Shown: positions 22,301 to 29,764 of the stretch, in pieces
Layout: each line of letters opens with the position of its first letter
Numbering within the stretch: the first letter of the stretch is position 1
DNA from: Gammaproteobacteria bacterium
GTDB lineage: Bacteria > Pseudomonadota > Gammaproteobacteria > Pseudomonadales > Azotimanducaceae
Direction: 5' to 3'
Assembly: GCA_028824555.1 (NCBI GenBank)
Contig: JAPPDJ010000023.1
Coordinates: 1 to 39,867 of the forward strand
DNA length: 39,867 nucleotides
Made by a program: the position numbers and the translations under genes
Notes under the pieces: model-generated
What the model was told of the DNA's origin: nothing
What the model saw: only the letters and a program-made list of their open reading frames with translations
Database searches by the model: none

Positions 22301-23215
22301 TCAGGCCGTGAGGAACACGCAGGTTGGGCAGGTGGGGTCTGCCGCGTCAGCGTCGGCGGGCGTCTGGTACTGCGGCTCGTCGTGGCGTGGCAAGCGACTG
22401 TCCTTTTGCATCACGCCGTCCTTCCAGTCGTCGTTTGCGGCCCAGCGGTGGGGCAGGACCAGCACTTCTCCCGGTGATTTCGCGTCGCGGATGTGCTTCA
22501 AGGCTCTGAGCGTCACGTCGCGTTGCTTGGTCGGGTCGAACGGCGGGCCGGCGGTGCGGCCCAGGGGATAGTCGAGAAAGGCGATGCGCGGGGCGGCGGC
22601 GCTTGCCGAGATCGATAGGGCGCTCGAGAGGCTCACGGTGGGGATGCCGCGGGCTTCGGTTTCTCGGGCGATCAGTCCGACGGACTGATGGCAGACGGGT
22701 CAGACGGGCACCATCAAGGCCACGTCCACCTCGTCGGCGGCGAGGCGATCTGCCAAGGCTGGCGCCAGGGTGTCTCGCACCTTGCGGGCGGAGTAGATGC
22801 CGCCCATGAAGGTGTAGGCGCGTTCGGACACGCTGCCGATTGCGCCCTCGTTCGCGAGGCCCCGCAGGGCCGCGAGGGGGAAGACGACGTTGGGGTCCTG
22901 GCGGGCGTCGGCGTAGTCGTAGGCGAAGTGGGTGATGCGGAGGTCTTCGGTGGGCGTGTCGCGGTGGATTTCGCGATAGCTCACGTCGTCGCGGAAGTGG
23001 AATGCGACTTGGCTGAGTGCATAGATGCCGCCGGAGGCAACCAGCCCCACGCGCCATTCGGACATGGGACGGTCGGTGGCGGCCAAGGGCATCGGTTCGT
23101 TGCGCACCCACTGGTAGGCGGAGTAGCCCTTCGAGGAGTACACCGCGCGGGTGCGCTCGATGTAGTCGACCGGAGGCTGTCGCCCAAGCGCTTGCTGCTC
23201 GTCCGGGGTGCTCAT
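22301..23215 (-). CDS. Selenoprotein of the GrdB/PrdB (glycine/sarcosine/betaine/proline reductase B) type; UGA read as selenocysteine
   Basis: The protein has 304 residues if the in-frame UGA at 22702-22700 encodes selenocysteine (residue 172). The sequence around it is VALMVPV-U-PVCHQSVGLIA, the U-x-x-C-H pattern of PrdB/GrdB-like selenoproteins. Family-like sequence continues in the same frame after the UGA (PTVSLSSAL, AFLDYPLGRTAGPPFD) and the tail has CPTC. An 8-bp hairpin with a GUC loop begins 11 bases after the UGA (see the SECIS entry). Cutting at the UGA would leave a 171-residue fragment and a headless 111-residue one. The start ATG overlaps the moaE stop (ATGA), so it is the last gene of the moaCDE operon. 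The substrate is unknown. Aerobic marine bacteria carry relatives that are not part of Stickland reductases. Confidence 0.85.
22671..22689 (-). promoter_or_regulatory. Bacterial SECIS element for the selenoprotein
   Basis: Eleven bases after the UGA the mRNA has AUCAGUCC, loop GUC, GGACUGAU: a perfect 8-bp stem with a 3-base loop. The loop starts 19 bases downstream of the UGA with G then U. This fits the published bacterial SECIS rules (apical loop about 16-37 bases from UGA, small loop with an early G). It lies inside the coding region, as bacterial SECIS elements do, and would bind SelB. Confidence 0.75.
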
Positions 23216-23694
23216 GTGTTCGTCGGCTCCGTCACCTCACCCCAAGACTCGCGCCGGTTCCGGTCGCTGGCCGTGGACTCGATCCACACGTCGCCATCTT
23301 GGCGCCGCTCCTTCTTCCAGAACACCGCATCCGTCTTGAGGTAGTCCATGATGAACTCGCAGGCCGCAAAGGCGTCGGGGCGATGCCCGGAGGCGGCCAG
23401 CACCAGCACGATTTGCTCATTCGCCGCCAAGTCTCCAACCCGGTGCACCACCACTACGTTGAGGAGCCGCCAGCGCTCGCCGGCCTGCTCCACGATGCGC
23501 CGGATGCTGTCCTCGGTCATGCCCGGATAGTGTTCGAGATGCAGCGCCTGCACCGTGTTGTCGCCGAATCGGTCCCGCACGAGGCCGCCGAAGGCGACGA
23601 TGGCGCCGCAGTCGCCGCCACAACGTTCGCGACACGCGGCCCATTCGGCCGCGATGTCGAAATCCTGTGTCTGTATCCGGATGTCGGTGTGCAT
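23212..23694 (-). CDS. moaE: Molybdopterin synthase catalytic subunit MoaE
   Basis: The protein has 160 residues. GAIVAFGGLVRD, LHLEHYPGM, HRVGDLAANEQIVLV and the active-site segment DYLKTDAVFWKKE identify MoaE; the two lysine regions (K-T and W-K-K) are the ones needed for catalysis. With MoaD it converts cyclic pyranopterin monophosphate to molybdopterin in the cytoplasm. Its ATG comes one base after the moaD stop, and its stop overlaps the start of the selenoprotein gene, so the four genes are very likely one operon. The C-terminal tail after SWGEV is short and unremarkable. Confidence 0.95.
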   Translation of the reverse strand: MHTDIRIQTQDFDIAAEWAACRERCGGDCGAIVAFGGLVRDRFGDNTVQALHLEHYPGMTEDSIRRIVEQAGERWRLLNVVVVHRVGDLAANEQIVLVLAASGHRPDAFAACEFIMDYLKTDAVFWKKERRQDGDVWIESTASDRNRRESWGEVTEPTNT

Positions 23695-24651: not shown

Positions 24652-25752
24652 ATGACTGAGCCCGCACCGGACGAAGGAGACACGCCCCTGCGGGTGATGG
24701 TGGGCATGTCGGGTGGGGTGGACTCCGCCGTTGCCGCGATGACGCTCAAGGAACAGGGGCACAGTGTCGCGGGCCTGTTCATGAAGAACTGGGACGAGGA
24801 CGACGGCACCGAGTACTGCACCGCCGAGGCCGACTACGCCGATGCGGCCCTGGTGTGCGAGCGCCTCGGCATTGAGCTCTTCGCCGCCAACTTTGCCGCC
24901 GAATACTGGGACAACGTGTTCGCCGCCTTCCTCGCCGACTACCGCGCCGGACGCACCCCCAATCCGGACGTGCTGTGCAATCGGGAGATCAAGTTCCGCC
25001 TGTTCGTGGACTACGCGGCCGAGCTCGGCTACCCCGTGGTCGCCACCGGGCACTATGCGCGCCGAAGCCCGCTTGGCGAGCCGTTCCGGCTGTTCCGGGG
25101 CGTGGATCGGAACAAGGATCAGACCTACTTCCTGCAAGCGGTGCCGACGGAGCAACTCAAGGACTGCATCTTTCCCGTCGGCGACATGACGAAGCCGGCA
25201 TTGCGAAAGCGCGCCGAGGCGGCTGGCCTCTCGGTGCATGACAAGAAGGACAGCACCGGCATCTGCTTCATCGGCGAGCGGCGCTTCGCCGACTTCCTCG
25301 CCCGCTTTCTGCCGGACGATCCCGGCCCCGTCCTCGACATGGAAGGCACGGCGCTCGGCGAGCACCGGGGCCTCGCCTGGTTCACCATCGGCCAGCGCCA
25401 GGGCATCGGCATCGGCGGCCAGGCGGGGCGTGCCGAAAAGCCGTGGTATGTCGCCCGCAAGGACCAGGACAGCAACACCCTCTACGTCACCCAGAACGAT
25501 TGCGACCTGCTCTCGCGCGAGCTGCATGCCAGCGGCCTCAACCGCATCGCCGGCGAACTGCCGGAGCGGTGCACGGCCAAGACGCGCTATCGCCAGCCGG
25601 ACCAGCCCTGTAGCGTGGATGTCGCGGGGGACGCGGTGACAGTGACGTTCGAGGCGCCCCAACGCGCCGTCACGCCCGGGCAATACGTCGCCTTCTACCT
25701 CGGCGAGGAATGCCTGGGCGGCGCCCGCATCGACCACACCGACGGGGAATGA
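24652..25752 (+). CDS. mnmA: tRNA-specific 2-thiouridylase MnmA
   Basis: The protein has 366 residues. The PP-loop SGGVDS is at 20-25, the first catalytic Cys is at 109 ([11 protein letters not shown]) and the second at 205 ([10 protein letters not shown]). [13 protein letters not shown] and the C-terminal beta-barrel ([15 protein letters not shown]) are all present, so it looks complete. It thiolates U34 of tRNA Lys, Glu and Gln using sulfur relayed from IscS and the Tus proteins. Its stop overlaps the purB start (ATGA). In many gammaproteobacteria hflD lies between mnmA and purB; here it is missing. Confidence 0.96.
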
Positions 25753-27542
25753 CCGTGAATCTCGAACCCCTCACTGCGCTGTCGCCCCTCGATGGGCGGT
25801 ACCGCTCCCGCGTCGCGCATCTGGCCGAGCATGTCAGCGAGTTCGCGCTCATTCGCTATCGCGTGCGGGTGGAGGTCGAGTGGTTCGTCTTCCTCGCGGG
25901 TCTGGACGAGGTGGCGGAACTGCCTCCCGTGGACGCTGCCACGCAAGAGCAACTGCACGCCATCTGGAGGGATTTCTCGCGCCAGGATGCAGCCGCCGTG
26001 CGGGCGATCGAGGCCCGCACCAACCACGACGTGAAGGCCGTGGAGTATTTCGTCAAGGACAAGGTGGCCGGCATTGCCGGCCTTGAACCGCACATCGAGT
26101 TCGTCCACTTCGCCTGCACCTCCGAGGACATCAACAATCTCGCCTATGCCCTCATGCTGAGCGAAGTGCGCGAGCGAGCCCTGCTCGGCCCGATGCGCGA
26201 ACTTGCCGGCAGGATCGGTGAACTTGCGGCACCGCTCGCCGCTCGTCCCATGCTCGCGCGCACCCATGGGCAGGCGGCTTCGCCCACCACTGTCGGCAAG
26301 GAACTGGCCAATGTCGCGGCTCGTCTGCGCCGTCACATCGGCACGCTCGCAGGCGTTGCCCTCTGCGGCAAGATGAACGGCGCGGTGGGCAACTACAACG
26401 CCCACCTCGTCGCCTTCCCCGACGTGGACTGGCCGGCGAGGGCACGCGAGTTCGTCGAGGGCCTGGCACTCGCCTTCAACCCCCACACGACGCAGATCGA
26501 GCCGCACGACACCATCGCCGAGCTCTGCCACGCGGTGATGCGGTTCAACCAGACGCTGCTCGACTTCGACCGCGATATCTGGGGCTACATCGCGCTCGGC
26601 TATTTCCGCCAGCGCAAGGTGGAGGGCGAAACCGGCTCCTCGACCATGCCGCACAAGGTGAACCCCATCGACTTCGAGAACTCGGAAGGCAACCTCGGCA
26701 TCGCCAACGCGTTGCTCGGACATCTGGCGGACAAGCTGCCGGTGTCGCGCTGGCAACGGGACCTGTCGGACTCCACCGCCTTGCGCAGCCTTGGCCCAGC
26801 GGTCGGGCACTGCGTAGTCGCCTATTCGAGCGCCCGGCGGGGCCTCGACAAGCTGGAAGTGGACGCAGAGCGGCTGGCGGCAGACCTCGACCAATCCTGG
26901 GAGGTGCTGGCGGAAGCGGTGCAGACCGTGCTGCGCGCGGCCGGCGCAAAGGAGCCCTACGAGACCCTCAAGGCACTCACCCGAGGCCAACGGCTGGATC
27001 GAGACGTGTACCTCGGCCTCCTGGCCGACCTTGATCTCACAGAGCCGCAACGCGAACGTCTGGCGGCACTCACGCCGGCAACCTACGTCGGCGCGGCGGA
27101 GCGCCTCGCCCGGGAAGCAGCCGCGCCGGAAGTCGTGGTGCGGGAAGTAGCCTGGAGCGACTGCTCCAAAACCCTCCGCGCCATCCGGGAGGAGGTGTTC
27201 ATCCGCGAACAGAACGTGCCCGTGGGCGAGGAATGGGACGGCCGCGACGACGACAGCCGCCACTTCCTCGCCGAGTCGGACGGCAAGCCCATAGGCACCG
27301 CAAGGCTCCTCGCCGCTGGCCAAATCGGCCGCATGGCGGTGCTGCAACGAGCGCGCGGCCTCGGTATCGGTCGCCTCCTGCTCGACGCCGCCGTCACGGC
27401 CGCTCGCGAGGGCGACTACCCCGAGATTTTCCTCGAAGCCCAAACCCACGCAGTCGAGTTCTACCGCAAGGCGGGTTTCCGCCCCGAAGGCCCAACCTTC
27501 ATGGAAGCCGGCATCCCCCACCAACGCATGACCTTGGACTAG
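25749..27542 (+). CDS. purB: Adenylosuccinate lyase PurB fused to a C-terminal GNAT acetyltransferase domain
   Basis: The protein has 597 residues. Residues 1-458 match a full-length PurB (E. coli PurB has 456): [11 protein letters not shown] at the start, [28 protein letters not shown] and the signature [18 protein letters not shown]. PurB cleaves SAICAR and adenylosuccinate in purine synthesis. Residues 459-597 form a complete GNAT domain of the YitI/ElaA-like kind: [40 protein letters not shown], the acetyl-CoA loop [11 protein letters not shown] and [11 protein letters not shown]. The frame is open throughout with no stop between. ATG 25749 overlaps the mnmA stop. The acceptor of the GNAT domain is unknown. 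I know of no standard PurB with this domain. Confidence 0.93.
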
Positions 27543-27663: not shown

Positions 27664-28065
27664 GTGGAAGAGAGGTTTCGACTGAACGGTGCCGTGCCGC
27701 GCGACCCGGCCGTAGAAGCGTGGTTCGCGGAACGCAACAACGCCCTCGGCGCCATCGCCCGAACGTGGTTCGAGCACATGCGCCAATGTGGCTCGGAGGT
27801 GGTGGAACTCGTCCACGATGGCTGGGCCGTCGCCTGCGTAGAGGACCTGCCGTTCGCCTACGTCAGTACCTTCACGAAGCACGTCAACGTCGGCTTCTTC
27901 GCCGGTTCTATCCTTCCCGACGCGGCGCACCTCCTCCAAGGCACCGGCAAGCGAATGCGCCACGTCAAGCTCCGCCCCGGCGAACACGTCGATTCCGAGG
28001 CGCTTGGGGCCCTCATCGAAGCCGCCTACGAAGACGTTCGCGACTTCGCCCACTTCGCGAGATGA
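27664..28065 (+). CDS. DUF1801-domain protein
   Basis: The protein has 133 residues from GTG 27664. VELVHDGWAVACVEDLPFAYVSTFTKHVNVGFF and LLQGTGKRMRHVKLRP are the characteristic DUF1801 segments, a small YdhG-like fold with no proven activity. It is soluble and has no signal peptide. The ribosome site is weak, and it starts right after a hairpin repeat. It ends 10 bases before the stop of the convergent hipA-like gene, leaving no room for a separate terminator. Confidence 0.8.
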   Translation: MEERFRLNGAVPRDPAVEAWFAERNNALGAIARTWFEHMRQCGSEVVELVHDGWAVACVEDLPFAYVSTFTKHVNVGFFAGSILPDAAHLLQGTGKRMRHVKLRPGEHVDSEALGALIEAAYEDVRDFAHFAR

Positions 28066-28075
28066 CCCGCCGGCA

Positions 28076-29335
28076 TCACGGGACGCCACAAAGGTGCTTG
28101 GCGGTGCGCGTTTCCTCGTGCTCGAAGGCCCCCTCGTATTGGCGGATGTCCCCGGCAGTCAGCCCAGCGGCGCGACAATGGCCACGCCACTGACTTTCGA
28201 TGACGGAAACCATCTGCGCGAGCATTTGGCAGGCGTGGTCCCTCTTTATGTCGAAGAAAGGGGCAGCCTCGATGGCGGCTTCGATGGATGCGGCGTTGCC
28301 GCTCAACTCGCTGACGCCCGTCTCCAGGTGTCGTTGGCGCGCCGGTTGCGGATTGATGTCGAACGCCGGCGCCAGGCTCCACAGTCCACGCCCCACATGG
28401 AGTAGGCCAAGGTTCTTTAGGTGGTTGTCGTTGTTGGAAACGAGGATCGTGAAAAGCATGCGACGAAAAAGCTCCTCGATCTCCTTCTGCACGTCGTGAG
28501 CGTGGGCTCGCAACGCATCGGCAATGTCGGTGTAGAAGGCCCCGGTCGCCGTCTCGGCACCGACAAAGGACCGCGCTGAAAGGTACGGCACTCGGTCCGC
28601 GTCCGGCATGGCGCCATGCCGATCAAACCGCTCGATCAACGCTACCGGCGCGCTGGTTTGTGCAAGTTCCAGGCGCGCCGTAGCGGCATTGATGCCGGCC
28701 GCACGCGCAAGGCGGAGCGTTGCCACTTCCACACGCTCGATGGGCGTGGTGTCGTGGACGGTGGTGAACTTGGCGATCATCAACATGCTGCGGTCATCCA
28801 AGACGTTCGCCTTGGGACGAGCGCCGCCCAAGGAGCCGGCGCTACCAAGCAGTCGCTCCCGCTCTTCGGCAGTGAGGCTGTCGGGGTCGGCACCAGCCAA
28901 ACGATTGACGTCTCGCAACTCCGTGAGGCGCGGAATCGGCGGCTTTGCCGAAGAAACAGGGCGACCTTCGGAATCCAGGTAGCGCAACGCGCCTTGCCTC
29001 GTGATGTCGTCTGCGTTCAGAAGGAAATCCAGTTCCGTCAGCCACCCGGTGCGGGCCTTGCGAATGAGTCCGCGTCCCCAGGAGTCCGGGGCACCATCGT
29101 CCACCGGCGGGGGCAAGGCGGAGCGCGGGTTCTCGCGGGATGCGGCAGCGTAGAACGGATAATCGACCAGCGGCATCGTCGGCGCGATGGGAAACGCGCC
29201 CGGATGGTCGAGCCATTCGACCCGGTAGCGAAACGCACTCGTTTGGCGGCGGCCGTCAGACTCAAAAAGCAACTCGCCCACGGGATGCAGTTCCCTGCCG
29301 ATGGCGACCGACACGCGCTGCGTCGTCTTGGTCAC
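28076..29335 (-). CDS. hipA: HipA-like serine/threonine kinase (toxin of a type II system)
   Basis: The protein has 419 residues. The N-terminal HipA domain (about 1-100, GAPDSWGRGLIRKA) is followed by the kinase part. The Gly-rich loop is SAGSLGGARPKA (165-176), Lys189 sits in MIAKF, the catalytic Asp303 in SNNDNHLKNLG, and a further Asp326 in LAPAFDINP. HipA kinases phosphorylate glutamyl-tRNA synthetase or other tRNA synthetases and slow growth; the target here is unproven. The start is GTG 29335, overlapping the stop of the HTH gene upstream (GTGA). All key residues are present, so it is probably active. Confidence 0.87.
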   Translation of the reverse strand: MTKTTQRVSVAIGRELHPVGELLFESDGRRQTSAFRYRVEWLDHPGAFPIAPTMPLVDYPFYAAASRENPRSALPPPVDDGAPDSWGRGLIRKARTGWLTELDFLLNADDITRQGALRYLDSEGRPVSSAKPPIPRLTELRDVNRLAGADPDSLTAEERERLLGSAGSLGGARPKANVLDDRSMLMIAKFTTVHDTTPIERVEVATLRLARAAGINAATARLELAQTSAPVALIERFDRHGAMPDADRVPYLSARSFVGAETATGAFYTDIADALRAHAHDVQKEIEELFRRMLFTILVSNNDNHLKNLGLLHVGRGLWSLAPAFDINPQPARQRHLETGVSELSGNAASIEAAIEAAPFFDIKRDHACQMLAQMVSVIESQWRGHCRAAGLTAGDIRQYEGAFEHEETRTAKHLCGVP

Positions 29336-29664
29336 GTGTCCTCCTTCGCCGCCGGCAGTCGAGGGCGTCGGATTCTCTGCGGCAAACTATCGATGTCGAG
29401 CATGAGGCCGGTGTCGTCGCGGGAGACATCGAGAAGCCCCTCCAGTCGATGCAGTTCGCCAAGAGCGAGGAGTGCCATCGCCACAACGCCCGCCGCGACA
29501 CCAGGCTCGCCTCGTTCGAGCCGCACCACCGTACCCGGCGACACACCCATGCGCGCCGCGAAATCCGCTACCGGAAAGCGCCGCTTCTTGCGCGCAATTC
29601 GAATGTCACGCCCCAACGCGCGAAGCGTGCGCTGCACTGACGGGGGGAGCGGTCGATGAGCCAT
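29332..29664 (-). CDS. hipB: HipB-like HTH antitoxin (XRE-type)
   Basis: The protein has 110 residues from ATG 29664. DIRIARKKRRFPVADFAARMGVSPGTVVRLERGE (given here as two halves: DIRIARKKRRFPVADFAARM and GVSPGTVVRLERGE) is an XRE helix-turn-helix. HipB-type antitoxins bind and silence HipA and repress the operon. The stop overlaps the hipA start. A TATATT hexamer ends 7 bases before the ATG, so the mRNA may be leaderless. The upstream 50 bases are AT-rich, unlike the neighbours. Confidence 0.82.
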   Translation of the reverse strand: MAHRPLPPSVQRTLRALGRDIRIARKKRRFPVADFAARMGVSPGTVVRLERGEPGVAAGVVAMALLALGELHRLEGLLDVSRDDTGLMLDIDSLPQRIRRPRLPAAKEDT

Positions 29665-29671
29665 AAGAGTC

Positions 29672-29677
29672 AATATA
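29672..29677 (-). promoter_or_regulatory. -10 element of hipBA, 7 bases from the ATG
   Basis: On the minus strand TATATT (29677-29672) is followed by GACTCTT and the hipB ATG. The spacing is the same as at the Fic gene and would place the transcript start at or next to the ATG. No good -35 hexamer is visible at 16-18 bases, and a TTGATC lies at 22 bases. Confidence 0.45.
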
Positions 29678-29764
29678 ACGTAGTTTAGAAAGGTTAGCGG
29701 ATCAAATTTCAATAAATACGGTGGCTGCCCCGTTGTCGTCCAAGCAGGAGATGCGAAAGCTCAA

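Follow-up and report, generated by a model that had tools for sequence, protein, structure and literature searches.

Adenylosuccinate lyase (PurB) from other species is a homotetramer with lyase activity, and the fold motif of the GNAT N-acetyltransferases is an R/Q-x-x-G-x-G/A loop. A precedent for joining such a GNAT to a metabolic enzyme is MadA (YiiD) of Escherichia coli, which PMC8666670 describes as a malonyl-ACP decarboxylase joined to a GNAT, the latter nearest in structure to 5JQ4 (SACOL1063); according to the same paper the two domains are independent and the decarboxylase is active without the GNAT. The protein considered here resembles MadA, as there described, in carrying a SACOL1063-closest GNAT joined to a metabolic enzyme (PMC8666670), and differs from it in the enzyme partner and in layout, the GNAT being N-terminal with a 10-residue spacer in MadA and C-terminal with about four residues here. 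A search for the hot dog malonyl-ACP decarboxylase domain gave no match in the fused protein (Pfam, E 0.001), and the comparison with MadA is one of a possible likeness in working only, with no shared membership. A SACOL1063-group GNAT on a metabolic enzyme is a known kind of arrangement; new here is PurB as the partner. No report of a PurB-GNAT fusion was found in the open-licence PubMed Central literature, and PMC10924467 names PurB and a GNAT only in the gene lists of one figure legend.

The window, that is, the whole stretch of DNA analysed, comprises 39,867 nucleotides from a gammaproteobacterium of the family Azotimanducaceae (contig JAPPDJ010000023.1 of assembly GCA_028824555.1), and all positions are those of this stretch. 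The features at the locus are the following.

24652..25752, + strand: mnmA, upstream of the fused gene (sequence; Pfam tRNA_Me_trans)
25749..27542, + strand: fused gene purB-GNAT, an open frame of 597 codons plus stop
25749..27122, + strand: PurB (adenylosuccinate lyase) part, residues 1-458 (NCBIfam NF006764, Pfam, fold)
27123..27131, + strand: linker, given as codons 459-461 (AlphaFold2 model)
27132..27539, + strand: GNAT N-acetyltransferase part, residues 462-597 (Pfam, AlphaFold2, fold match)
27135..27140, + strand: two in-frame GTG codons (463, 464), a candidate internal start at the GNAT start (codon scan)

The original prediction, made from the letters alone, was that a complete PurB runs in frame into a complete GNAT domain, and both halves of that claim are borne out. 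Translation of the frame at 25749-27542 (+) gives 597 residues without a stop, matched by complete PurB and GNAT models, and its start overlaps the end of mnmA in the four letters ATGA (25749-25752). An AlphaFold2 prediction for the full chain has a mean pLDDT of 88.4 and ends the last PurB helix (450-457) about four residues before the first GNAT strand (462-467), which leaves residues 458-461 as the linker; among the fused proteins this linker is very short and differs in both sequence and length. The PurB half, predicted to be complete over residues 1-458, matches the NCBIfam adenylosuccinate lyase model NF006764 over residues 5-456 with 674.6 bits against a cutoff of 446 and is therefore complete, with Lyase_1 at 16-314 and ASL_C at 333-447 (Pfam). 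Its H173 aligns with E. coli H171, the catalytic histidine that is mutated in PDB entries, and the PurB signature loop GSSTMPHK, which we take to hold the catalytic serine, forms residues 296-303. In the comparison of the model with solved structures the closest are adenylosuccinate lyases (ranks 1-13, TMt 0.90-0.93, all bacterial), and the PurB sequences of the E. coli and Pseudomonas aeruginosa structures are 52-55% identical to the PurB part. Like PurB as otherwise known (NF006764; PDB 7t24, 2ptq, 3gzh), this half is full-length and keeps the catalytic histidine and signature loop; unlike the solved PurBs, of which the 13 sequences listed, at 380-482 residues, are too short for it, it is followed by a C-terminal GNAT.

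The GNAT half has the full pattern expected, including the acetyl-CoA loop: three Pfam GNAT models match above their cutoffs with their best stretches between residues 491 and 596, the loop reads RARGLGIG at 534-541, and a conserved tyrosine, Y572, follows. Folded alone from residue 463, this part reaches a pLDDT of 96.4 (AlphaFold2). In 119 rows of non-fused GNATs, which include some genes twice, 41 positions reach a conservation of at least 85%, and the window's GNAT matches the consensus at each of them (41/41); 30 of these positions are kept by all 14 fused proteins and at the other 11 at least one other fused protein differs. The separate GNAT genes of relatives have the same conserved residues as the window's GNAT. 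The nearest solved GNATs by sequence are YjcF and SACOL1063, then PA0115 and ElaA (33-36% identity), and by fold the ranking is SACOL1063, YjcF, PA0115, ElaA (5jph with E 1.0e-12 and TMq 0.92, YjcF with 0.88 and 5jq4 with 0.83). Since SACOL1063 (5jph, 5jq4) and YjcF (1q2y), with PA0115 (1xeb) and ElaA (5z6n) next, are closest by both sequence and fold, the GNAT is classed here with the SACOL1063/YjcF type, whose solved chains are GNATs alone of 140-153 residues in contrast to the PurB-fused form in the window. An ElaA-type GNAT was considered and rejected: the model of that type, NF007644 (PRK10314), reaches 41.8 bits, far below its cutoff of 171.

The fused frame without a stop occurs in at least 14 of 206 genomes of the family, the window's own included, and is divided between the window's genus (g1; 8 of 16 genomes) and a second genus (g7; 6 of 9). 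Single-contig genomes are found among them (G012, G013, G225 and G226), and two named records that are about 90% identical, L031 and L032, are also fused and may equal the assemblies G014 and G009. Apart from the two closest relatives of the window, the fused proteins are about 61-66% identical to that in the window, and over eight pairs of fused genes dN/dS lies at 0.09-0.30 for the PurB half and at 0.11-0.21 for the GNAT half, which indicates purifying selection on both. The GNAT is a separate gene in 3 of the 9 g7 genomes and in 7 of the 16 genomes of the window's genus, its start (ATG or GTG) in the latter overlapping the purB stop by four bases. One genome (G001) was left undecided, as purB runs off the end of its contig and is matched in two separate frames, and was omitted from the tree described below; in another (G005, locus L013) the separate GNAT gene matches in two pieces and may be frameshifted. 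The original prediction had looked to relatives with two separate genes as evidence against a fusion. Such relatives exist, as just counted, and this makes the fusion a lineage-specific state; it does not make it false. In samples of 390 genomes from the order, 369 from the class and 299 from the phylum, no fusion outside the family was among the matches listed, those that were full-length and stop-free being limited to G000, G012 and G225, which all belong to it; these searches used strict E-value limits and overlapping samples, and fusions with a distant GNAT or cut by a contig end could escape them. The fusion is real, lineage-specific and rare in the genomes sampled, and the rarity supposed in the original prediction, for fusions of purine synthesis enzymes to acetyltransferases, holds for this one at that scope, across family, order, class and phylum.

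By a hand count over 37 family genomes, purB and the GNAT are fused in 8; the GNAT is a separate gene no more than about 100 bases behind purB in 20 and lies about 1.2-1.3 kb away in 2; 1 could not be called, and in 6, one of which (G017) has no match at all, no GNAT was found near purB. At four family loci (L118, L122, L125 and L126) an in-frame GNAT start comes immediately after the purB stop, one codon from fusion. How the fused and split states are related was judged from two trees. The careful tree has 30 rows, 24 of g1 and g7 and 6 outgroups, and shows fused proteins scattered around split ones; with the outgroups taken as split, the minimum is three state changes, namely one fusion and two re-splits. 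Placing all fused rows in one clade is rejected (AU p 2.5e-40), an expected outcome given that g7 forms its own clade, whereas holding together the fused rows of g1 is marginally disfavoured (AU p 0.055) and holding together those of g7 is not rejected (AU p 0.197). Several forks are weakly supported, and with these AU values the number of fusions is uncertain. The quick tree has 64 rows, 14 of them fused; it omits loci with purB and GNAT at least 400 bases apart except nine outgroups, drops L031, L032 and L063 as copies of other rows and L153, L033, L046, L022 and L123 as fragments (L022 is also the same gene as L146), and keeps both L058 and L115 although they are identical. Its minimum is four changes, and it nests the split genus g8 within the group containing the fused rows (support 87), which makes a third re-split possible. 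An independent fusion in each group was also considered; a history of gains only needs about five or more changes against three, counted by eye with open forks resolved in its favour. One fusion followed by two re-splits is the best reading of the tree and a likely history.

The surroundings of the GNAT in relatives place this history in a larger cluster. Genome contigs searched with the GNAT alone yielded 276 loci, and the counts that follow refer to the best 80. In 45 of these 80, purB lies upstream on the same strand, with a cupin gene in between at 36 and direct contact at 9, including 2 that are fused (L031 and L032). At 4 of the 80, all in Nitrosomonadales (L072, L076, L088 and L091), the GNAT instead follows hisZ and purA, 1 has the cupin gene only, and 30 show no purB, purA or cupin gene in the sequence covered, 6 of the latter having less than 2.5 kb upstream. 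At the one locus where the cupin gene was scanned (L041) it is a RoxA-type gene (JmjC_2 plus a ROXA-like winged helix); at the others it was called by similarity to L041. A C-terminal DUF7931, a domain for which no paper was found in the open-licence PubMed Central literature, is present in 6 of the 7 relatives' GNAT proteins scanned, these six having been picked for their long frames; in L067 it is a separate overlapping gene rather than a GNAT tail, and two of the six, both purB-linked, are tandem GNAT-GNAT-DUF7931 proteins of 483-495 residues (L036 2360-3808 and L047 4001-5485). Such GNAT-DUF7931 proteins (PF25559) have the same GNAT in the same place behind purB as the window, and differ in standing apart from PurB and in their C-terminal DUF7931, which the fused genes do not have.

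Several of these components are missing in the window's clade. The gene hflD, expected between mnmA and purB and said in the original prediction to be absent there, has no match in the window's own genome (PF04356, G000; the E. coli control was positive), nor in any of the 12 tested genomes of the window's genus and g7, the sole match among 14 genomes being in G066. JmjC_2 has no match in 10 of these 12, and in the other two (G003 and G010) it lies on contigs other than that of purB, with no BLAST resemblance to the L041 cupin. DUF7931 has no match in 9 of the 12; G226 has a partial match that barely passes the cutoff (profile positions 3-62), and G012 and G013 have partial ones below it, in all three far from purB. 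The window's clade is without hflD and, beside the GNAT, without roxA and the DUF7931 tail.

We consider it probable that an old gene cluster was compacted to give a protein of two enzymes, each half of which retains its own function while the join mainly serves to fix co-expression; the lineage spread, the conserved residues, the purifying selection and the gene order of relatives were all counted for this. In the proposed model, the ancestral cluster would have been mnmA, hflD, purB, a roxA-like cupin gene and a GNAT gene with or without a DUF7931 tail; loss of hflD, the cupin gene and the DUF7931 tail from the locus would have left the GNAT directly behind purB, the two frames would have merged once, in the common ancestor of the two genera, and two descendant groups would have separated them again, one via the four-base overlap of start and stop. 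The PurB half would perform its usual two steps of purine synthesis and the GNAT half would retain its ancestral, independent acetyltransferase reaction, probably on the free amine of a small molecule. The main effect of the join would be fixed co-expression, together with one GNAT per chain of the PurB oligomer, so that a tetrameric PurB would have four GNAT domains sitting on it. The evidence leans towards a covalent link that is not needed, since the separate GNAT of relatives keeps the same conserved residues and the tree has two apparent re-splits; from its persistence in two genera, the link itself could nevertheless be useful. Beyond the locus, the fusion points to a conserved cluster of Gammaproteobacteria (purB, a roxA-like cupin gene, the GNAT and sometimes DUF7931), offers a handle on the function of the cluster's GNAT, and forms part of a natural series that runs clearly from adjacent genes through overlapping ones to a fusion and, apparently, back again.

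An unlikely alternative is that the GNAT regulates PurB or the AMP branch, acetylating PurB, PurA or a branch molecule and so tying purine flow to acetyl-CoA, with tethering raising the local concentration. The original prediction had already proposed PurB, a neighbouring protein or a purine-linked small molecule as what the GNAT may modify. The long-lasting neighbourhood with purB at 45 of the best 80 of 276 GNAT loci speaks for such a role, as do the retention of the fusion in two genera and the four Nitrosomonadales loci at which the GNAT stands right behind the gene for PurA, whose reaction precedes that of PurB in AMP synthesis; the last is a weak lead on function because at least three other Nitrosomonas loci (L073, L085 and L086) have a different upstream gene. 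Against regulation, 30 of the same 80 loci show neither purB, purA nor cupin gene in the sequence covered (6 of them on short upstream sequence), the cupin gene between purB and GNAT at 36 of the 45 purB loci indicates that the whole cluster is conserved rather than the PurB-GNAT pair, and two re-splits are the simplest reading of the tree; in the parts of the literature covered, the combination of PurB, lysine acetylation and acetyltransferase yielded only a paper on protein CoAlation. Stated more boldly, the GNAT would be an acetyl-CoA responsive partner of the adenylosuccinate branch and the fusion a self-contained unit of purine control, with the clustering with purB (and with purA in some Nitrosomonadales) arising because the GNAT acts on that branch, a version that we find distinctly doubtful. 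If the GNAT does act on the purine branch, the fusion would be a new acetyl-CoA link to nucleotide synthesis; otherwise it is an elegant but ordinary outcome of operon compaction.

Neutral read-through, with a stop lost by chance, a GNAT that still works or is translated separately from its own internal start, and a link that serves no function, is rather unlikely as well. It would fit the very short linker, variable in sequence and length, and the alternation of split and fused states in the tree, and a GTG or TTG codon occurs within the stretch from 14 codons before to 3 after the GNAT start in all 14 fused genes, from which a free GNAT could also be produced. The same stretch has no ATG in any of the 14, however, and both the purifying selection on the two parts and the retention of the fusion in two genera, at about 61-66% identity to the window beyond its two closest relatives, argue against a link without a role. 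That an assembly or sequencing error erased a stop between two genes is very improbable: although the window comes from a 182-contig assembly and the genes are separate in some relatives of its genus, the same open frame is present in 13 further genomes, four of them single-contig, and in L031 and L032, which are perhaps the same assemblies as G014 and G009.

Other genes in the window were noted in passing. Behind the fused gene lies a gene for a DUF1801 protein (27664-28062, +). On the opposite strand, a HipA-like gene (HipA_C, E 1e-41) with a helix-turn-helix gene directly before it (28079-29712, -) is likely to form a HipBA-type toxin-antitoxin pair. Upstream of mnmA, MoaE (23215-23694) adjoins a gene at 22700-23215 (-) for a 171-residue protein whose match to GRDB, glycine reductase selenoprotein B, is confined to the C-terminal part of the latter (positions 212-345 of 347).
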